A stretch of 21,931 nt of DNA from a virus: the IMG/VR virus record IMGVR_UViG_3300035698_008202, positions 1 to 21,931 of that record. One strand, 5' to 3'. A program made the position numbers and the translations under genes. The number at the start of each line of letters is the position of its first letter. Position 1 is the stretch's first letter. This document shows, one piece after another, positions 6,188-18,693 of this stretch. A model generated the notes under the pieces. That model was not told the DNA's origin, did no database searches, and worked only from the letters and a program-made list of their open reading frames with translations.

Positions 6188-9067
6188 ATGGGTCTCTATA
6201 CAGATTTTATTGCACACTCTACAGTCATTGACAAAACAGAACCGCAGCAGGGCACGCCGCGATCAGCTTACAACGAATTGCTCCAACATAAAGCAAAATT
6301 GGATCAGACAAGGCCAACCGCCTTTGATGCGTATGACGAAGTGCAAGTTCTAAATGCCTTTACCAGCACCGTGGGCAGTGGCAACTATACGATCACAATT
6401 GTTGATGAGCTTGGTGTCAGTCACACCACTGCTAACCTTGCGTACGATGCGGACGCGGCTACTATTGAAGCGGCCATTGACGTAATTATGACATCCGACG
6501 CCTATGCAGATTGGACCAACGCTGACATTAGCGTTGCCGTGACAGGCGACCTTGCCACCAACGACGCAACGCTCACCTTTGATGGTGCCTCTGTTACAGA
6601 GAAGAACTTCAGCCAAACCACAGTAGCAGACGGAAACCTCGCTGGTGCCGGTACGGTCAATGGAATGGTCTCAACGGTAAACGGAATAACCACCAACGAA
6701 GTGCAGACTATTAACACATTCCTCCCCACGGTTAGTGGTGGCAATTTCACGCTCAACGTCGTAGACGAGCTTGGAGTTAATCACACTACGGCTAACATTC
6801 TGTACGATGACAACGCTGCGACAATTGAAGCAGCCATTGACACAATTATGACGTCCGACGGATATGTAGGCTGGACCAACGCCGACATTAGCGTTACTTT
6901 GGGAAGTGACCTCACTGCTGGTGATGCAACACTCACCTTTGACGGTGCTTCAGTTACAGGTAAAAACATGGGTCAGGCTACCATCGCTGACGTAGACCTC
7001 GTTGGCAGCGGCACAGTCAACGGATCGACTACTGGTACGCCCGGAGCGACCGTCAACGAAGTGCAAACTCTCACCCAGTTCCTCCCCACAGTCAGTGGTG
7101 GCAACTTCACAGTCACAATCATAGATGAACTCTCTACCAGTCGCACCACAGGTAACATTGCGTACGACTCAGCCGCAGCCGTAATCGAAGCGGCCATTGA
7201 CGTAATAATGACGGCGGGCACATACTCGGGTTGGACCAATGGTGACATCACTGTCACCTTGGGAAGTGATCTCACCGCTGGTGACGCAACACTCACGTAC
7301 GACGGTGCTTCTGTCACTGGTAAGAACTTCGACCAAGCTACAATTACCAATGTTGATCTCACCGGCTCTGGTACGGTGAACGGATCGTCCACCGGCACGC
7401 CTGGCTCGGAAACTGCTGAGGTGCAGACTATTAACACATTCACCGCCCCCGTTACTGGCGGTAACTTCACGTTAAACATCGTAGATGACCTCGGCGCCAA
7501 TTACACCACGGCCAACATCCTTTGGAATTCAAACGCAGCTACGGTTGAAGGCGCAATCAACACGGTTATGACAGGCAACTACACAAGCTGGGTCAATGGC
7601 GACATTACTGTTGCCTGTACAGACAACCTCACTGCTAACGACATGACACTTACGTATGATGGTGACTCAGTTGATGGTTTGAACATGGGTGAAGTAGTGG
7701 CCACTGACGTGGACCTCGCTGGCGGCGGCACAGTCAATGGGTCGGCCACCGGCACTCCAGGTGCAAAAATTAGCGAAGTGCAAACCATTAACACATTTGT
7801 TGCTACAGTTAGTGGCGGTAACTTCACAATCAACATCGTTGACGAACTCGCCGGAGACCACGTCACTGCTAACATCGCTTATGATGCAAACGCGGCTACT
7901 ATTGAGACTGCTATTGACGTGGCTATGGCGGCGTACACAGGTTGGGCTGCCTGGACTAATGGTGACATCACCGTCGCCTTGGGAACCGATCTCACTGCTG
8001 GGGACGCAACACTTACCTTTGATGGCGACTCAGTCAACGGCTTGAACATGGGTCAGGCCACTGTTGCTGACGTTGATCTCGTCGCAGGCACGGTCAATGG
8101 GTCAGGCACGACGACCCCTGGCTCAGTTACCAGCGAAGTGCAAACTATTAACACGTTTGTTGCGACGGTTATTGGCGGCAGTTACACAATCAACATTGTG
8201 GATGAACTCGCCGTAAACCATGTCACTACTAACCTTGCATACGATGCGGACGCGGCTACTATTGAAGCGGCCATCGACGTGGCTATGGCAGCATACGGAA
8301 GCTGGACTAATGGCGACATCACCGTTGCCTTGGGAACTGACCTGACTGCTGGCGATGCAACGCTCACCTTCGACGGTGCTTCTGTCACAGGTAAGAATGT
8401 GGGTCAGGCGACCATCGCCGACGTGGACCTTGAGTCAGGCACATCCAACGGGTCGGCCACCAGCACGCCTGGAATAACCACCAACGAAGTACAGACCATT
8501 AACACGTTTATTGCCACGGTTACTGGCGGTAACTACACACTCAACATCTCAGACGTTGGTAGTGGCAACACTTACACCACAGCCAACATTGCATACGATG
8601 CAAATGCGGCTACGATTCAAGCTGCGATTGACACCGTTATGACGGGAAACCACGCGGGTTGGACTAACGCCGACATCACTGTTGCCTTGACGGGTGACCT
8701 CACTGCTAACGACGCAACGCTCACCTTTGACGGAGACTCCGTTACAGGTTTGAACATGGGTGATTTGGCCATCGCCGACGTAGACCTTACCGCACCCGGC
8801 ACTGTTAATGGCGGCTCCATCACGACTGCGGGTCAGGCGATTCGATACGCTTGGGCGGTAATGTGGGCGTATGGTATGATTTCCGCATCATCGCTGCCGG
8901 ATCAAGGTGACTTACTTTCGCCGGCCGCATTAGATGTGACACCTGCATCGACTACAGCGCGTTGGCCTAACGCCGCCTTGAGAAGGGCACTTGCATGGCA
9001 GGCGGCCATTGACGATGACCTACCTGCGTTGAGGACGCAATTGGAATCACTGTTCTACATTAAATAA
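6188..9067 (+). CDS. Large virion protein with seven ~120-residue repeats (959 aa)
   Basis: Residues 1-50 form a distinct N-terminal region (MGLYTDFIAHSTVIDKTEPQ). Residues 51 to ~878 are seven repeats beginning E-V-Q-x-(I/L)-x-x-F, each with a G-G-N-(F/Y)-T-(L/I)-N-I-V-D-(E/D)-L strand pattern, an A-A-T-(I/V)-E-A-A-I-D helix, W-T-N-(G/A)-D-I, and D-(A/M)-T-L-T-(F/Y)-D-G. Residues ~879-959 are a different, helical C-terminus (RYAWAVMWAYGMIS; ALRRALAWQAAIDDD). The repeat resembles EVQT...TGGTFTL-type beta repeats I recall from phage virion proteins, probably elongated fibre or head-decoration modules. AGGAG lies seven bases before ATG. Strand alternation fits a surface-exposed structural protein; exact location on the virion is unknown. 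Confidence 0.75.
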   Translation: MGLYTDFIAHSTVIDKTEPQQGTPRSAYNELLQHKAKLDQTRPTAFDAYDEVQVLNAFTSTVGSGNYTITIVDELGVSHTTANLAYDADAATIEAAIDVIMTSDAYADWTNADISVAVTGDLATNDATLTFDGASVTEKNFSQTTVADGNLAGAGTVNGMVSTVNGITTNEVQTINTFLPTVSGGNFTLNVVDELGVNHTTANILYDDNAATIEAAIDTIMTSDGYVGWTNADISVTLGSDLTAGDATLTFDGASVTGKNMGQATIADVDLVGSGTVNGSTTGTPGATVNEVQTLTQFLPTVSGGNFTVTIIDELSTSRTTGNIAYDSAAAVIEAAIDVIMTAGTYSGWTNGDITVTLGSDLTAGDATLTYDGASVTGKNFDQATITNVDLTGSGTVNGSSTGTPGSETAEVQTINTFTAPVTGGNFTLNIVDDLGANYTTANILWNSNAATVEGAINTVMTGNYTSWVNGDITVACTDNLTANDMTLTYDGDSVDGLNMGEVVATDVDLAGGGTVNGSATGTPGAKISEVQTINTFVATVSGGNFTINIVDELAGDHVTANIAYDANAATIETAIDVAMAAYTGWAAWTNGDITVALGTDLTAGDATLTFDGDSVNGLNMGQATVADVDLVAGTVNGSGTTTPGSVTSEVQTINTFVATVIGGSYTINIVDELAVNHVTTNLAYDADAATIEAAIDVAMAAYGSWTNGDITVALGTDLTAGDATLTFDGASVTGKNVGQATIADVDLESGTSNGSATSTPGITTNEVQTINTFIATVTGGNYTLNISDVGSGNTYTTANIAYDANAATIQAAIDTVMTGNHAGWTNADITVALTGDLTANDATLTFDGDSVTGLNMGDLAIADVDLTAPGTVNGGSITTAGQAIRYAWAVMWAYGMISASSLPDQGDLLSPAALDVTPASTTARWPNAALRRALAWQAAIDDDLPALRTQLESLFYIK
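6338..8823 (+). repeat. Seven tandem ~360-bp coding repeats
   Basis: Repeat starts, at the Glu codon of EVQ, are at 6338, 6698, 7058, 7418, 7775, 8135 and 8486. Spacings are 360, 360, 360, 357, 360 and 351 bases, always a multiple of three. The copies have diverged at the DNA level but keep the motifs, so they are older than the 30-bp array in the fibre gene. Copies 5 and 6 share an inserted M-A-A-Y type segment. Confidence 0.9.
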
Positions 9068-9076
9068 GGGGAAGAG

Positions 9077-9502
9077 ATGAAACTTGGCGAAATTTTTCAA
9101 AGTGTCGAAGCGTGGAAGAAATTAACCTCCGTCAACATACAGCCTAAGCTCGCGTATACAGTGCTTAAATACACGCGATTGGTCGAGGAGGAGTATAAGA
9201 TTGTGGAGCAGCAGCGGCGGGGGCTGTTTCGCGAAATTGCCGGCACCGAGGAGGGTGAAGATGCGCAGCTAGAGGCTGAAACACCTGAGTTAATGGAATT
9301 CGTCGCAAGGTTCGGTGAAATCTTGTCGCAAGAGTCCTCGCTAGAGAAAATCGACCTTGAGTTTGAAACTGTAGTTGACGCTTTGGATGACAAAGATGCT
9401 GTAATATCAGTTTCCGATTTAGCTGCACTCGAACCTTTTTTTAAGATTGAAATTAACAACACTCCAAAGGAGAAGCACGATGAAAAAGATTTGGCAAAGT
9501 AA
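9077..9502 (+). CDS. Hypothetical phage protein (141 aa), acidic helical
   Basis: ATG at 9077 follows AGGGGAAG and begins MKLGEIFQSVEAWKKL. The product is acidic and helical, with a motif late in the chain (SVSDLAALEPFFKIE) that I recall from a widespread phage family starting MKLxEI...EALxKL and ending SAxDLxALxPF; members have no established function. Its 3' end overlaps the holin-like gene by 23 bases, and the ribosome binding site of that gene (AAAGGAG) lies inside this coding region. Confidence 0.7.
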   Translation: MKLGEIFQSVEAWKKLTSVNIQPKLAYTVLKYTRLVEEEYKIVEQQRRGLFREIAGTEEGEDAQLEAETPELMEFVARFGEILSQESSLEKIDLEFETVVDALDDKDAVISVSDLAALEPFFKIEINNTPKEKHDEKDLAK

Positions 9503-9665
9503 GACGATTTGGGTCAACGCTCTCATGCTCTGTGCAGGCGTTGTCGGTTATTTGGTCAGTGACGATCTCATCAAGGATAATGAGAGTTTGCTGGCGTTGC
9601 TTGTCGCAGTGCAGGGTGGTGTGAATGTCATTCTGCGGTTTGTTACAACCAAACCGATTAAGTAG
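9480..9665 (+). CDS. Holin-like small membrane protein (61 aa)
   Basis: Two hydrophobic segments (about residues 9-26, WVNALMLCAGVVGYLV, and 38-55, LALLVAVQGGVNVIL) are joined by a charged turn (SDDLIKDNES) and flanked by basic ends (MKKIWQSK; TTKPIK). Size and topology fit small two-segment phage holins, which permeabilise the inner membrane at lysis. ATG at 9480 has AAAGGAG seven bases upstream; an in-frame start at 9447 was rejected because it lacks a site and lies deeper in the previous gene. No endolysin was recognised nearby. Confidence 0.7.
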   Translation: MKKIWQSKTIWVNALMLCAGVVGYLVSDDLIKDNESLLALLVAVQGGVNVILRFVTTKPIK

Positions 9666-10204: not shown

Positions 10205-11023
10205 ATGTTTAATTCCAAAGTATTACTACGTTCGCTTCTAGGCGTGATAGCTGCCGTGCTGATCGGTTGGTCGGCCCTTAGCGTGGCTCCAGAGACGAAG
10301 AAGCAGTCAACTAATTTCCCAGTTGTGAAGCTGTCTGTTTATGAAGGCTTGACAGGGTTTACCCAGGACAAGGAAGACCTACAGGAGGAAGGCGCAAAGA
10401 TTGTCATCAAGGCGCAGACAATTGCGGAAGTCGGGGAACTGGTTCGATTCGACGTATCGTCTAGTCAGGCGGAGTCATTCAAATGGATTCTTGTCCCTGA
10501 GTCGCCGGACTTCGAGGTATACAATGATGGCCGCAGGGCAACCTTCAGTGCTCGTAAAGAAGGTGAGTACATGTTTATCGTGGCGTGCGCCTATAAGAGT
10601 AAAGTTGACGTTACAACGCACATTGTCACAGTAGGCACCCCAGGGCCGAAACCTAATAGTTACCCCAACGTCAGCCGCCCTGACTCTAATGCTGAGGTTG
10701 TAGATTGGGTCCCTTATTGGTGCGCGCTCACGCAGCGCCCACAAGATGGTGCCTTAAAGCTGTCCGCAAGTTTCGACGGTGTGGCTGCTACAATTTCTGC
10801 GGGCGTGAATACAACGCCAAACGAAATTATCAACGCCACGAGTGAATCCACACGACAAGCTCTCGGCGACTCAATAGAGGACTGGAAACCCTTCCTACTC
10901 AGTCTGCAAAACCAGTTCAAAGATCGTGCAGCCGCAGGCACACTGGTCTCCCCAGACCAACACGCTAAAATGTGGCGAGAAGTTGCGACAGGACTGCGAG
11001 CTTACGCAGACCTTTTTAAGTAA
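10205..11023 (+). CDS. Membrane-anchored protein with PKD-like domain (272 aa)
   Basis: The N-terminus has a basic start and one hydrophobic segment (residues ~6-27, LLRSLLGVIAAVLIGW) without a lipobox Cys, so it is probably a signal anchor or uncleaved signal. Residues ~65-145 match the PKD/Ig-like pattern: G-E-L-V-R-F-D-V-S-S-S, F-K-W, a strand with DGRRATFSA, then G-E-Y-x-F-I-V-A-C-A and T-H-I-V-T-V-G. The C-terminal third is helical (TRQALGDSIEDWKPFLLSL). GAGGGAG precedes the ATG. PKD-like domains mediate protein or glycan contacts outside the cytoplasm; here the likely place is the periplasm or virion surface. It heads a run of envelope-directed genes. Confidence 0.7.
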   Translation: MFNSKVLLRSLLGVIAAVLIGWSALSVAPETKKQSTNFPVVKLSVYEGLTGFTQDKEDLQEEGAKIVIKAQTIAEVGELVRFDVSSSQAESFKWILVPESPDFEVYNDGRRATFSARKEGEYMFIVACAYKSKVDVTTHIVTVGTPGPKPNSYPNVSRPDSNAEVVDWVPYWCALTQRPQDGALKLSASFDGVAATISAGVNTTPNEIINATSESTRQALGDSIEDWKPFLLSLQNQFKDRAAAGTLVSPDQHAKMWREVATGLRAYADLFK

Positions 11024-11047
11024 TAGATAAGCCATAAGGAGATAACG

Positions 11048-12079
11048 ATGAACCGACGTGATGCTTTGAGGCTGATGGCTAGTACGGCTGGTGGGCTCGT
11101 TACAGGGGTTAGTTTACCGACATTTGCGGCAGGTACGCCGATTGACCTGCACACGGACACTAATACCCCACTCTACGCCGGGTGGCTCGACGACACAAAA
11201 TCGCGGGCGCGATTTGTTAAGGCTAATCGCTACCCCTTTCTAAATCAATTGTCTAGTAACATCAAAGGTACAGGCAAGGGTAAGAAGGTTCTCCTATGGA
11301 AGCTTTTTGAACAAATCACTGGCAGACCGCTAGTGCCACACTACCAGACAGTCGGGGATTGTGTTAGTCATGCTTTTGGACTCGGAATAGATGTCTTGAC
11401 GGCTGTTCGCATTTTGATGCAAAATAAGTCAGAGAAGTGGGTAGCAAAATCGGCGACGGAAATAATTTACGCCGGTTCGCGAGTAGAGGTTGGAAAGGGT
11501 GTACTTACAAAAGACGGCTCCCGTGCTGAATGGGCGGCAGAGTTTATTAGGCAATGGGGCGTGCTCCTGCGACAGAGCTATCTTTCAGGTGAGCACGACT
11601 TTACTATCTACGACGGCCACAAGGCCCGCGCCCTTGGTCAAAGTGACGGCAGAGGGGTGCCGGATGAATTGGAACCACTGTGTAAACTCCACCCAGTAAA
11701 GACGTGTGCCCGTGTGCAATCTTGGGAAGACTGCCGTGACTCAGTGGCTAACGGCTACCCAGTGATTATGTGTAGTAACATTGGTTTCAATACAAAACGA
11801 GACAGGGATGGATTTCTACGACGTGGGCGACGGCCGTGGTATCATGGTATGGTAATCATCGGCATTGACGATGAGTACCGCCGTTCGGGGGGATTAGTCC
11901 AGAACAGTTGGGGCGGAGATGTGTGGGTTAGCGGCCCAAAACGACACGGACAACCTGACGGGAGTTTCTGGTGTGATGCTGCGACGATTGATGCCGCCAT
12001 GAAGCAGGGTGACAGTATCGCTATCAGTGGTTACGTTGGTTATCCAAGACAAGACATTCCCAATTACATAATTTGGTGA
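11048..12079 (+). CDS. Papain-like (C1-type) cysteine protease with Tat-type signal (343 aa)
   Basis: The N-terminus is a twin-arginine signal (R3-R4-D-A-L-R-L, hydrophobic stretch, A-A-G end near residue 29), so export through the host Tat system is predicted. The mature part has papain-type landmarks in order: Q100 and C105 in HYQTVGDCVSHAF (oxyanion Gln and nucleophile Cys), H266 in WYHGMVIIGID, and N286 in QNSWGG. These support a complete catalytic site. AAGGAG lies six bases before ATG. Possible roles are processing of virion or fibre proteins, attack on host surface proteins, or lysis help; the sequence does not decide. A phage protein that needs folded export is unusual. Confidence 0.8.
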   Translation: MNRRDALRLMASTAGGLVTGVSLPTFAAGTPIDLHTDTNTPLYAGWLDDTKSRARFVKANRYPFLNQLSSNIKGTGKGKKVLLWKLFEQITGRPLVPHYQTVGDCVSHAFGLGIDVLTAVRILMQNKSEKWVAKSATEIIYAGSRVEVGKGVLTKDGSRAEWAAEFIRQWGVLLRQSYLSGEHDFTIYDGHKARALGQSDGRGVPDELEPLCKLHPVKTCARVQSWEDCRDSVANGYPVIMCSNIGFNTKRDRDGFLRRGRRPWYHGMVIIGIDDEYRRSGGLVQNSWGGDVWVSGPKRHGQPDGSFWCDAATIDAAMKQGDSIAISGYVGYPRQDIPNYIIW

Positions 12080-12084
12080 TCGTA

Positions 12085-12627
12085 ATGAAAGAATACATCC
12101 TCACTTTTCTAGGAGTCTGCTATGTTTGCTTTGCTTTCGCTGTGGCGGCGCACAGTAAAATTGATTCGCTCGATAGGGCTAGCCCTATCGAAAGGCACCA
12201 AGATCGTATGGAGCAGGAAGATCGAGGAGGCAACAGATATAGCCAACGATTATCTCGATCACAAAGGTCATCCGAAGCTGAGTACGCCCCCAGAGAAAAA
12301 GGAGCCGCGAAGACGATTGCTGAGGCGGCGGCGATAACGCCAGTCTTCCAGCCAAATTGCATGATTCTATGGACAGCTAAGTGGTGTCCCGCTTGCAAAA
12401 GCATGTATATACGTGCCAAAATTCTGCAAGCTGAAGATTATGCAGTCTACATTTTGGATATCGACCAGAATAAAGCGCTTGCCAAAAAGATGCGAGTACA
12501 ATATCTGCCAACAACTTTGATTCGTCGATACGGTGTTGAAATCACCAGACGCACAGGGATTGTTACCGTGGACGAGATCAAGCGAGACTTGAAGAAAAAT
12601 ACTGAGACACCTTATGACAGTTGGTGA
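12085..12627 (+). CDS. Exported or anchored thioredoxin-fold protein (180 aa)
   Basis: Residues ~85-170 are a thioredoxin-like domain with active site W100-C101-P-A-C104, strand YAVYILDID, and the cis-proline loop Y140-L-P142-T-T. Residues 4-22 are hydrophobic and end in A-V-A-A-H-S, a possible signal peptide or anchor. Residues ~25-80 are a hydrophilic Arg/Ser/Glu-rich linker. ATG at 12085 follows the protease stop by five bases; a TTG at 12073 is less likely. The linker region is overlapped by another open frame with a better ribosome binding site (12122-12337), so the true start could lie downstream, for example at 12208. A periplasmic oxidoreductase acting on cysteines of neighbouring products is an inference. 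Confidence 0.7.
   Translation: MKEYILTFLGVCYVCFAFAVAAHSKIDSLDRASPIERHQDRMEQEDRGGNRYSQRLSRSQRSSEAEYAPREKGAAKTIAEAAAITPVFQPNCMILWTAKWCPACKSMYIRAKILQAEDYAVYILDIDQNKALAKKMRVQYLPTTLIRRYGVEITRRTGIVTVDEIKRDLKKNTETPYDSW
12122..12337 (+). CDS. Possible overlapping gene, basic amphipathic protein (71 aa)
   Basis: ATG at 12122 has TAGGAG seven bases upstream, one of the better sites in this block, although it lies wholly inside the thioredoxin gene in another frame. The product begins MFALLSLWRRTVKLIRSIG, an amphipathic, possibly membrane-associating helix, continues with KIEEATDIANDYLDH, and ends in a Pro/Arg-rich tail (EPRRRLLRRRR). It looks more like a natural protein than most shadow frames, and the thioredoxin frame over this stretch encodes low-complexity linker. 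Either both are translated or the thioredoxin starts later. Not recognised. Confidence 0.45.
   Translation: MFALLSLWRRTVKLIRSIGLALSKGTKIVWSRKIEEATDIANDYLDHKGHPKLSTPPEKKEPRRRLLRRRR
12170..12191. repeat. Perfect 22-bp palindrome inside the overlapping frames
   Basis: TCGATAGGGCT (12170-12180) is followed directly by its exact reverse complement AGCCCTATCGA (12181-12191). In RNA it would form a stem with a small loop; in DNA it is a symmetric site such as a dimeric protein would bind. No T-run follows, so it is not a standard terminator. Confidence 0.85.
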
Positions 12628-12925
12628 GATAATCCTGGTATCCTTAGCAATTGCTGCCGCTTCGATGACTGTATCAAAGTCTAACGCAATGTTCTGGTTT
12701 AGGCAGCTAGTCTCAAAGCTTGGTTACTGGTTTAAGGAATTGATTCATTGCCCCTACTGTTTGAGTCACTGGTTAGCAGCTATTATCGCGATAGCAATGT
12801 TTCGAGCACCTGTGGGGGAGATGGTTATTACCGGCTTGGCGATGGTGACTCTTGCCAGTCTAGCGTCCTTAGGAATAACACATTTCTTTTTGGCACTTGA
12901 TGCCTTAGATAGGAGTGACGAATGA
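12614..12925 (+). CDS. DUF1360-like small membrane protein (103 aa)
   Basis: Hydrophobic segments lie at residues ~4-20, ~52-64 and ~70-97. Between them is H45-C46-P-Y-C49-L-S-H-W, the signature of DUF1360 proteins (C-P-Y-C-x-S-x-W), which occur in phages and Bacillus (YjcA-like) with no established function. The start overlaps the thioredoxin gene by 14 bases and the stop overlaps the next start as ATGA. The Cys pair beside a thioredoxin-fold gene is suggestive of a redox link, but this is inference. An inner-membrane location is predicted. Confidence 0.7.
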   Translation: MTVGEIILVSLAIAAASMTVSKSNAMFWFRQLVSKLGYWFKELIHCPYCLSHWLAAIIAIAMFRAPVGEMVITGLAMVTLASLASLGITHFFLALDALDRSDE

Positions 12926-13233
12926 ACTTCGCACGAAAAGCAAAACGAGTAGCACGGCGTCAGCATAGGCATGGCCTTATTACAGACAAAGAGTACGCGA
13001 AGGTGAAAGAAGCTGTTCGCGATCCAAAAGTTGTCGCAAAGTGGCAAGCTGAAGTCGAGAGGCAGATGGCTCCGCCCTGGACTGTGTCGGCTGGCTTTAT
13101 TGACTGGGGGGCCGTTTGGGACTGGCTTGTTAAGAATTGGCCTAAGATTCAGGCCATCCTGTTGAAGCTACTCCCGCTGCTGATTTTGGAACCAAATCCA
13201 ACAAAGAAAAAATACCGGAGGGATGTAAAATGA
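12922..13233 (+). CDS. Basic protein with hydrophobic C-terminal helix (103 aa)
   Basis: Not recognised. It starts in an ATGA overlap, with TAGGAG a few bases upstream. The N-terminus is strongly basic (ARKAKRVARRQHRHG), followed by a helical region and a Trp-rich hydrophobic segment (about residues 60-89: DWGAVWDWLVKNWPK, then IQAILLKLLPLLILE), ending basic (KKKYRR). It may sit on a membrane or bind nucleic acid. The stop overlaps the next gene as ATGA. Confidence 0.65.
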   Translation: MNFARKAKRVARRQHRHGLITDKEYAKVKEAVRDPKVVAKWQAEVERQMAPPWTVSAGFIDWGAVWDWLVKNWPKIQAILLKLLPLLILEPNPTKKKYRRDVK

Positions 13234-13661
13234 AGTTTCATAACCCCGCACGTCACTACCCTAGCTACCTAGTGCATGTTTATTTGAAGGACGGGCGTAA
13301 GCTAAATGTACGAGGTTCGTGTACACCTGAGATCAGTATTCCTATGAATGAGGAAGATGTCCTGGCGACTGTTGTCAAGATTGTCAACGCTAGTCGTGAA
13401 GTAGTGTTGGTTCGATTGCTAGTCGATGGTGAATGGTCCGATTACAGTGAGGAAGCCCTGGAAGCCGTGTTAACGCCGCCAAAGCCGCGTTGCAGGTGCA
13501 AAAATCCTGAGTCTTGCGGCGAAGCCAAGATGTGCAGCGGGGGTGTGACGGCATGTGTACAAAGCTGCAAACTGAAATCCAAGACAGAACCCAAAATAGA
13601 ACCCAAGCCAGAACCCGAGTCGGAAGACTACGGTAATGAATACGGGCTAGGTTGCAGTTAA
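13230..13661 (+). CDS. Cys-rich hypothetical protein (143 aa)
   Basis: Not recognised. ATGA overlap at the start, with GGAGGGATGTAAA as ribosome binding site. The N-terminal ~80 residues look like a small beta domain (YLVHVYLKDGRKLNVRG). Residues 88-113 hold six Cys (88, 90, 96, 102, 109, 113) in a short knot-like or zinc-like cluster. A spacer of repeated K-x-E-P units (TEPKIEPKPEPES) and a short tail with Cys142 follow. Neighbouring thioredoxin-fold and DUF1360-like genes make disulfide chemistry worth considering. Two TGACAAA copies separate it from the terminase start. Confidence 0.65.
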   Translation: MKFHNPARHYPSYLVHVYLKDGRKLNVRGSCTPEISIPMNEEDVLATVVKIVNASREVVLVRLLVDGEWSDYSEEALEAVLTPPKPRCRCKNPESCGEAKMCSGGVTACVQSCKLKSKTEPKIEPKPEPESEDYGNEYGLGCS

Positions 13662-17763: not shown

Positions 17764-18693
17764 ATGTCGAATTGCAAGCTGAATGACCTAATCTGGACGA
17801 AGCCGACGTTGGCCTGTTATGAAGGCGGAGACGGCGGAGACGGCGGAGATGGTGGAGACGGTGGAGATGGTGGAGACAGTGCGGTACAAGCTGCTGAAGC
17901 AGCCGCCGCTGCCGCCGCTGCGGATGCTGTCACTAAGGCCGAGGAGGCTCGCGCCGCCGCTGAGGCAGCACGAAAGAACACGGAGAAGACCTTCTCGCAA
18001 GCTGATCTGAATACCTTCCTAGCTGAAGATCGTCGTAAGCACCAGGAAAAAACCAGCCAGTTGGAGCAGAGCTACAAGCAGCTTCTTGATGATAAGAGTT
18101 TGCAAAAAGAGCAGCGAGCTAAGCTGGAGGCTGACCTTCAAGACGTGCAGAAAATGTCGCGTACGAAAGAGCAGCAGGCTGAATTTGACCGCAAGCAAGA
18201 GCGCGAACGCTACACAACCGAAGTGGACTCCTTGAAAGAACAAGTCCAGCAGTGGGAAGCCATGTTTAAGAGTTCCGTAATTGACCGGTCTCTTCAAGAT
18301 GCGGCCAACGCTCAGGACGCGTTTAATGCAAACCAAATTATGGGACTACTGCGCCCGATGACCCGTATGCAGGAAGGGCAGGACGACAATGGAAACCCGC
18401 TTGGGCTGTTTTCGCCTGTCATTGACTTCCCAGATATCGCTGAGACAACTGGGGAGCAAGTAACTACCCTTAGAACCCCCGAAGAAGCAGTACAACGAAT
18501 GAAGGAATTGCCTCAGCTTTATGGTAATCTCTTCAAGTCAAACGTTGTCAGCGGTGTTGGATCGGGTTCCGCGACCGGCGGCGTTAAGTCGGGTGAAGGC
18601 CGTATTGATCCTACGAAATTGACGCCAGAGCAATATCGTAAGGTTCGCAAGGAAAACCCAGAAGCCTTGGGCCTAAAGCAGCGACTCGCTTAA
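17764..18693 (+). CDS. Scaffold protein (309 aa) with GGD repeat
   Basis: Guides capsid assembly from inside the prohead. It lies just before the major capsid gene and has the expected make-up: a low-complexity acidic N-terminus with six Gly-Gly-Asp units (residues 21-38), an Ala-rich helical stretch, long coiled coil (about 75-165, Glu/Gln/Lys rich), and a C-terminus with helix-turn-helix character (DPTKLTPEQYRKVRKENPEALGL), often the capsid-binding part. AGGAGAG precedes ATG. The first residues (L-I-W-T-K-P-T-L-A-C-Y) strikingly match the start of the capsid protein. No protease domain was recognised in it. Confidence 0.8.
   Translation: MSNCKLNDLIWTKPTLACYEGGDGGDGGDGGDGGDGGDSAVQAAEAAAAAAAADAVTKAEEARAAAEAARKNTEKTFSQADLNTFLAEDRRKHQEKTSQLEQSYKQLLDDKSLQKEQRAKLEADLQDVQKMSRTKEQQAEFDRKQERERYTTEVDSLKEQVQQWEAMFKSSVIDRSLQDAANAQDAFNANQIMGLLRPMTRMQEGQDDNGNPLGLFSPVIDFPDIAETTGEQVTTLRTPEEAVQRMKELPQLYGNLFKSNVVSGVGSGSATGGVKSGEGRIDPTKLTPEQYRKVRKENPEALGLKQRLA
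17824..17877 (+). repeat. Six 9-bp units encoding Gly-Gly-Asp
   Basis: Units GGCGGAGAC, GGCGGAGAC, GGCGGAGAT, GGTGGAGAC, GGTGGAGAT and GGTGGAGAC run without gaps inside the scaffold gene. All are in frame; differences are synonymous. Such units can vary in number by slippage, giving a flexible acidic linker. Confidence 0.9.

Follow-up and report, generated by a model that had tools for sequence, protein, structure and literature searches.

A conserved cassette upstream of TerL in uncultured phages encodes a predicted exported papain-like protease, a thioredoxin, and a nested gene and may be a lysis module

The window, which is the whole stretch of 21,931 nucleotides analyzed here (positions 1 to 21,931 of IMG/VR record IMGVR_UViG_3300035698_008202), carries upstream of TerL a tightly packed set of genes for a PKD protein, a protease, a thioredoxin, a DUF1360 protein, a 103-amino-acid protein, and a protein with a variable tail. 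Judged from gene content and order, this cassette may be an envelope-attack set for the end of infection, i.e., a lysis (exit) module, a reading to which we assign a probability of about 0.48. In addition, substitution patterns showed a second predicted protein-coding frame within the thioredoxin gene (here designated NEST), an unannotated gene that a preliminary description of this DNA had missed. The genes of the cassette, including the holin-like gene at its head, are the following:

9480 to 9665, + strand: holin-like small membrane protein (hol63), 61 amino acids, head of the cassette
10205 to 11023, + strand: membrane-anchored PKD/Ig-like protein with a helical C-terminal domain, 272 amino acids
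11048 to 12079, + strand: papain-like (C1) cysteine protease with a predicted Tat signal and putative active-site residues Q100, C105, H266, and N286
12085 to 12627, + strand: thioredoxin (CPAC) with an N-terminal signal-anchor and a linker
12122 to 12337, + strand: NEST, 71 amino acids, in the +1 frame within the thioredoxin gene
12614 to 12925, + strand: DUF1360 membrane protein with invariant C46-x-x-C49...W53
12922 to 13233, + strand: small basic 103-amino-acid protein, W-rich, with a C-terminal hydrophobic segment
13230 to 13661, + strand: small protein with a conserved N-terminal domain and a variable Pro/Lys/Glu tail

The spacing within the cassette comprises gaps of 24, 5, and 25 nt and overlaps of 14, 4, and 4 nt. 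The 14-nt overlap is that of the DUF1360 start with the thioredoxin end, and a 4-nt overlap is found at each of the next two starts. All of the genes named in the preliminary description were present and tightly packed, with the small gaps and the overlaps at 12614, 12922, and 13230 that it had pointed out. Elsewhere in the window, a 959-amino-acid protein (6188 to 9067), probably a tail fiber, contains many similar repeats of ~120 residues, the copy number of which varies among the relatives, and a gene located between those for the portal and a head protein (17764 to 18693), in a scaffold-like position, begins with a GGDGGDGGD repeat.

The largest scan of IMG/VR yielded 79 loci, 169 stretches encode a protease relative, and four loci with such a relative were identified in GTDB genomes. 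The protease was absent from 50,697 deposited phage genomes and from the deposited plasmids searched, no cultured relative was found in our searches, and a literature search found nothing on such phages. The relatives are metagenomic contigs selected for carrying the protease, and many of the loci are closely related; the counts given here are not independent events, and the absence of a gene from such contig fragments is weak evidence.

In the 48 nonredundant loci with a TerL homologue (the TerL family), the gene order, which is PKD, protease, thioredoxin, (DUF1360), 103-amino-acid protein, (last gene), and TerL, was never violated (48/48). The protease is found in all 48 of these loci, the thioredoxin and the 103-amino-acid protein each in 47, PKD and NEST each in 42, and DUF1360 in 23; the six loci without PKD are cut contigs. 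A PKD-centered scan found the protease adjoining PKD in 14/14 loci, and a NEST-centered scan (14 loci) found no NEST outside the cassette, one of these loci being a contig cut within NEST. The full order in one relative (L029) is TerS-like gene, holin-like gene, g62a, GIY-YIG-like insert, PKD, protease, NEST, thioredoxin, 103-amino-acid protein, last gene, and TerL. The earlier proposal that the genes form an envelope-directed set that travels together is borne out by the constant order in the TerL family and by the constant proximity of the protease to PKD. Additional genes are inserted in some of the cassettes: GIY-YIG-type homing endonuclease genes are present in L010 (4243 to 4902; Pfam match below the cut-off) and L029 (7461 to 8150; recognized by eye), and a sulfotransferase-like gene (weak Pfam match) sits between the protease and thioredoxin genes in L024 (4476 to 5036).

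Beyond the TerL family, an exported thioredoxin is encoded 3' of the protease in L048, L054, L057, L063, L066, and L076 (the L048 and L057 thioredoxins score below the Pfam cut-off), and a PKD protein accompanies the protease in L051, L052, L060, L065, and L069. In about 20 loci, the protease is found by itself and without a signal. As to co-occurrence in unrelated phages, the combination of the protease with an exported thioredoxin recurs, but the rest of the set is not constant. The core pair of protease and thioredoxin is real, yet not obligatory, and the strict co-dependence that the tight coupling had suggested is contradicted by the solitary, signal-less proteases and by the limitation of DUF1360 to one clade and a few other phages.

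The protease frame from position 11048 opens with MNRRDALRLMASTAGG...FAAG, a Tat-type signal. Residues Q100, C105, H266, and N286-S287 are invariant across 61 protease relatives, giving the papain order of catalytic residues plus the oxyanion Gln, and the NSWG motif is present as in papain. One relative (L071) passes the Pfam Peptidase_C1 (PF00112) cut-off (25.0 versus 20.7), and PF00112 matches 7 of the 61 members at E values of up to 0.01; the window protease itself is unmatched by PF00112 and has no Pfam match over the cut-off. In a PDB profile search with the protease, 22/22 matches were C1 proteases, and the matches listed for its structural model (pLDDT of 47, a low confidence, and used for the fold only) were all papain-type C1 enzymes. 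Based on the Q/C/H/N active site, the NSWG motif, and the structure matches, the window protease is predicted to be a member of papain family C1, from which it differs in its sub-cut-off Pfam score, the lack of a known propeptide, and its absence from the deposited phage genomes. The activity of papain-like proteases of this type, unseen in those records, is therefore unexplored. The weak Pfam matches to DUF6374 and Peptidase_C39_2 were rejected.

Twin arginines were identified in 41 of the 43 intact protease N termini of the TerL family, together with a hydrophobic stretch and an AxA-type site, and Pfam TAT_signal matches five protease members (best match, 1.8e-5). The TerL-family protease is thus a predicted Tat substrate; proteases outside this family have no signal. 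A reading as a prohead protease is disfavored by the Tat signal. Inteins are located at three points of the relatives' proteases, all of which adjoin a catalytic residue (Cys105, His266, or Asn286): at C105 in L016, L017, L020, L049, L055, and L063; adjoining the catalytic His in L065; and directly after NSWG in L020, L039, and L055. Pfam Intein_splicing supports those in L017 and L020 and LAGLIDADG that in L020, and the other inteins were read from the sequence. The L049 intein is short, without an obvious endonuclease. In L062 (5956 to 7103), the protease frame is split in two by a frameshift or an assembly error; it is intact in the near-identical L031.

The thioredoxin has a CPAC (CxxC) motif and matches Pfam PF00085 (Thioredoxin) over the cut-off (1e-8). 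Its true start is most likely ATG 12085, which fits the relatives, TTG 12073 being the mechanical start, and its hydrophobic N terminus is also found in relatives. The DUF1360 protein matches PF07098 (2.4e-7; 31.1 bits versus a cut-off of 21), and C46-x-x-C49...W53 is invariant in the alignment (n = 20). With its family (PF07098, phrog_781), it shares the Pfam match over the cut-off and the CxxC...W of a membrane protein; the family is of unknown function and is here tied to the anchored thioredoxin in one clade. This link was rejected as independent evidence because a single gain and a single loss account for it on the TerL tree. In the L029-L041 clade, the thioredoxin is short, has no export signal, and apparently stays inside the cell, and the protease retains its Tat signal, which argues against an obligatory periplasmic control of the protease. 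The redox-controlled periplasmic protease system envisaged earlier is upheld only in part: control of the protease by the thioredoxin is hypothetical and would require the thioredoxin to be outside, and in one clade it apparently stays inside.

The PKD protein has an N-terminal transmembrane segment, and its AlphaFold model (pLDDT of 85) consists of a PKD/Ig-like sheet and a helical C-terminal domain. The model is most like the PKD domains of the collagenases ColG and ColH (TMt, 0.60 to 0.69), which supports a predicted PKD fold for the product of 10205 to 11023; profiles of PKD, NEST, and DUF1360 found nothing meaningful among solved structures. A role for the PKD protein as a chagasin-like inhibitor was rejected, inspection by eye having revealed none of the inhibitor loop motifs. 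The product of the last gene (13230 to 13661) has eight Cys in the window versus zero to five in other relatives, so that the cluster is special to the window and was rejected as a conserved feature. Cysteine chemistry had been ascribed to four products; because the six-Cys cluster is not conserved, three products, not four, plausibly have thiol chemistry. The hol63 gene has a strong SD (AAGGAG), and its ortholog in L007 matches holin phrog_4712 (E value, 2.1e-5); the window copy itself matches only at noise level. In L029 and L018, the holin-like gene lies directly 3' of the TerS-like gene.

Entry exclusion, virion maturation, and lysis had all been put forward for these genes; lysis fits best, and the other two are ranked below as rivals. 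A lysis module is the most likely of the roles considered because of the holin-like head of the cassette, its place just upstream of TerL (in L029, between the TerS-like gene and TerL), the small membrane genes adjoining the protease in other phages, and the lack of an over-cut-off match to ten murein-hydrolase families in 16 to 20 contigs. In other phage types, 12 of 31 loci, which are not independent of each other, have a small membrane gene immediately 5' of the signal-less protease gene, versus a background of 9.5%, and several of the small membrane genes that precede signal-less proteases match holin profiles weakly. Ten murein-hydrolase families were searched for in 16 to 20 contigs of 48 to 226 kb (one of the 16 is 18 kb), all protease carrying and possibly incomplete, and nine of the ten families had a working control. 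Amidase_2 had no match over the cut-off in 16 contigs, and NlpC/P60, CHAP, phage lysozyme, SLT, M15_3, M23, and Amidase_3 had none in 20 long contigs, with positive controls in both cases. The sole M15_4 match, in one record, was below the cut-off, and GH19 had no match in the long contigs, but neither did its control. Near the protease, L071 (8169 to 8768; PAS_9, 0.0004) and L057 (10991 to 11542; by eye) encode small membrane proteins that are holin-like and carry a PAS-like domain.

In such a lysis module, the holin-type protein would set the timing, and the Tat-exported papain-like protease, held or positioned by the anchored PKD protein, would cleave a protein of the host envelope (a wall protein, an S-layer, or peptide cross-links). 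It speaks against lysis that the usual targets of C1 proteases are proteins rather than murein. The anchored thioredoxin would reduce disulfides in the envelope substrate or in the protease, the CxxC membrane protein DUF1360, where present, would probably supply it with electrons, and NEST and the 103-amino-acid protein would work on the inner side of the membrane. The cassette is accordingly a candidate way for a large uncultured phage lineage to leave its host without any of the common endolysins covered by the search. A protein-rich host wall is a supposition, and a planctomycete host, with its protein-rich and cystine-rich wall, was considered as a possibility. A further step, in which a papain-type protease, a thioredoxin, and a CxxC protein have replaced the murein endolysin and lyse a protein-based envelope through proteolysis and the reduction of disulfides, with NEST adding a membrane-active component, is rather unlikely.

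Exported enzymes, an anchored partner, and membrane proteins would fit equally well with a remodeling of the envelope without lysis, in which receptors are cut or reduced (superinfection exclusion, receptor shedding, or host takeover), and the optional nature of DUF1360 is also consistent with this. We nevertheless regard this role as unlikely, given the presence of the cassette in 48/48 loci at a fixed place before TerL, its holin-like head, and the lack of an over-cut-off match to any of the ten lysis-enzyme families searched for; exclusion genes usually vary among relatives. Less probable still is a role in the virion or its morphogenesis, with the protease maturing a tail or fiber protein or riding in the virion for entry. 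Fiber-like genes are found 5' of the cassette in relatives, and in L071 and L078 the signal-less forms adjoin long fiber-like genes, which can come after the protease, an arrangement that speaks against lysis and would also fit a virion role. However, the near-universal Tat signal in the TerL family would take the protease away from the site of assembly, and the protease is paired with an exported thioredoxin. It is quite improbable that the thioredoxin serves general periplasmic folding or reduction of phage proteins, functionally separate from the protease: the signal-less thioredoxin and Tat-signal protease of the L029-L041 clade would agree with this, but the thioredoxin gene is repeatedly placed directly 3' of the protease gene, few bases away, in other phages as well.

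NEST is basic, with an amphipathic N terminus and an Arg-rich C terminus, and has its own SD (AGGAG). In five close genomes, the NEST frame had a pN/pS of 0.25 and the thioredoxin frame, counted on the same bases, one of 1.66; synonymous changes in the latter frame dropped from 0.648 in the region of the thioredoxin domain to 0.146 within the NEST overlap. Immediately 5' of NEST, 12 thioredoxin codons had a pN/pS of 0.36, indicating that the upstream thioredoxin start is coding too. With 15 genomes, the values were 0.41 for NEST and 1.46 for the thioredoxin frame, and eight pairs drawn from a further six groups of relatives showed the same direction, clear in some pairs of other clades (0.40 versus 1.54 and 0.50 versus 1.33) and weak in the most divergent pairs (0.71 versus 0.82). 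A free-standing NEST homologue is present in L029, L031, L033, L035, L038, L041, L049, and L088, where it precedes a short signal-less thioredoxin; L035 has no thioredoxin, and L088 is outside the TerL tree. That NEST is no gene and a mere by-product of the thioredoxin coding sequence is extremely improbable: when the codons of this one sequence were shuffled, a 71-codon ORF in its frame did arise in 9 to 15% of cases, but the evidence for NEST is conservation, not the length of the ORF in a single sequence, and consists of the selection on its frame rather than on the thioredoxin frame, also seen in other clades, and of the free-standing homologues.

NEST is thus a well-supported overlapping gene of a kind that annotation programs miss. 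The clade with the free-standing NEST forms one group in the TerL tree; rooting by outgroup terminases, which were too distant (2/4 were misplaced), gave no order for nesting versus separation. Such a contrast between a nested NEST with an anchored thioredoxin and a separate NEST with a signal-less one is rare and lends itself to the study of how overlaps form and dissolve. In the Rz/Rz1 genes of lambda and T7, a small gene is nested in the +1 frame in the gene of an N-terminally anchored protein, near TerL in T7. NEST likewise lies close to TerL and is wholly contained, in the +1 frame, in a gene whose product is anchored by its N terminus, but the outer gene encodes a thioredoxin, and NEST is strongly basic and has no lipoprotein signal. 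NEST was rejected as an Rz1-type spanin, as it begins with MFALLSLWRR and has no lipobox and no Cys.

An overlapping spanin gene of phage Mu was missed in the original annotation (PMC9239132). The lysis cassettes of P1, 21, and Mu (holin, exported SAR endolysin, and spanins) also combine an exported enzyme and small membrane proteins in the vicinity of late genes, and the P1 enzyme Lyz is a target of modification by the Dsb system of the periplasm (PMC9239132). The window differs from these cassettes in that its enzyme is a predicted Tat-signal papain-like protease and not a murein hydrolase, its thioredoxin is phage encoded, and no lipoprotein spanin was recognized in the block.

Signal-less protease homologues were also identified in Bacteroidota contigs (Mucilaginibacter and Flexithrix), namely, L089 (8974 to 9897), L090 (8983 to 9906), and L091, and the neighbors of the L089 homologue look chromosomal rather than phage.
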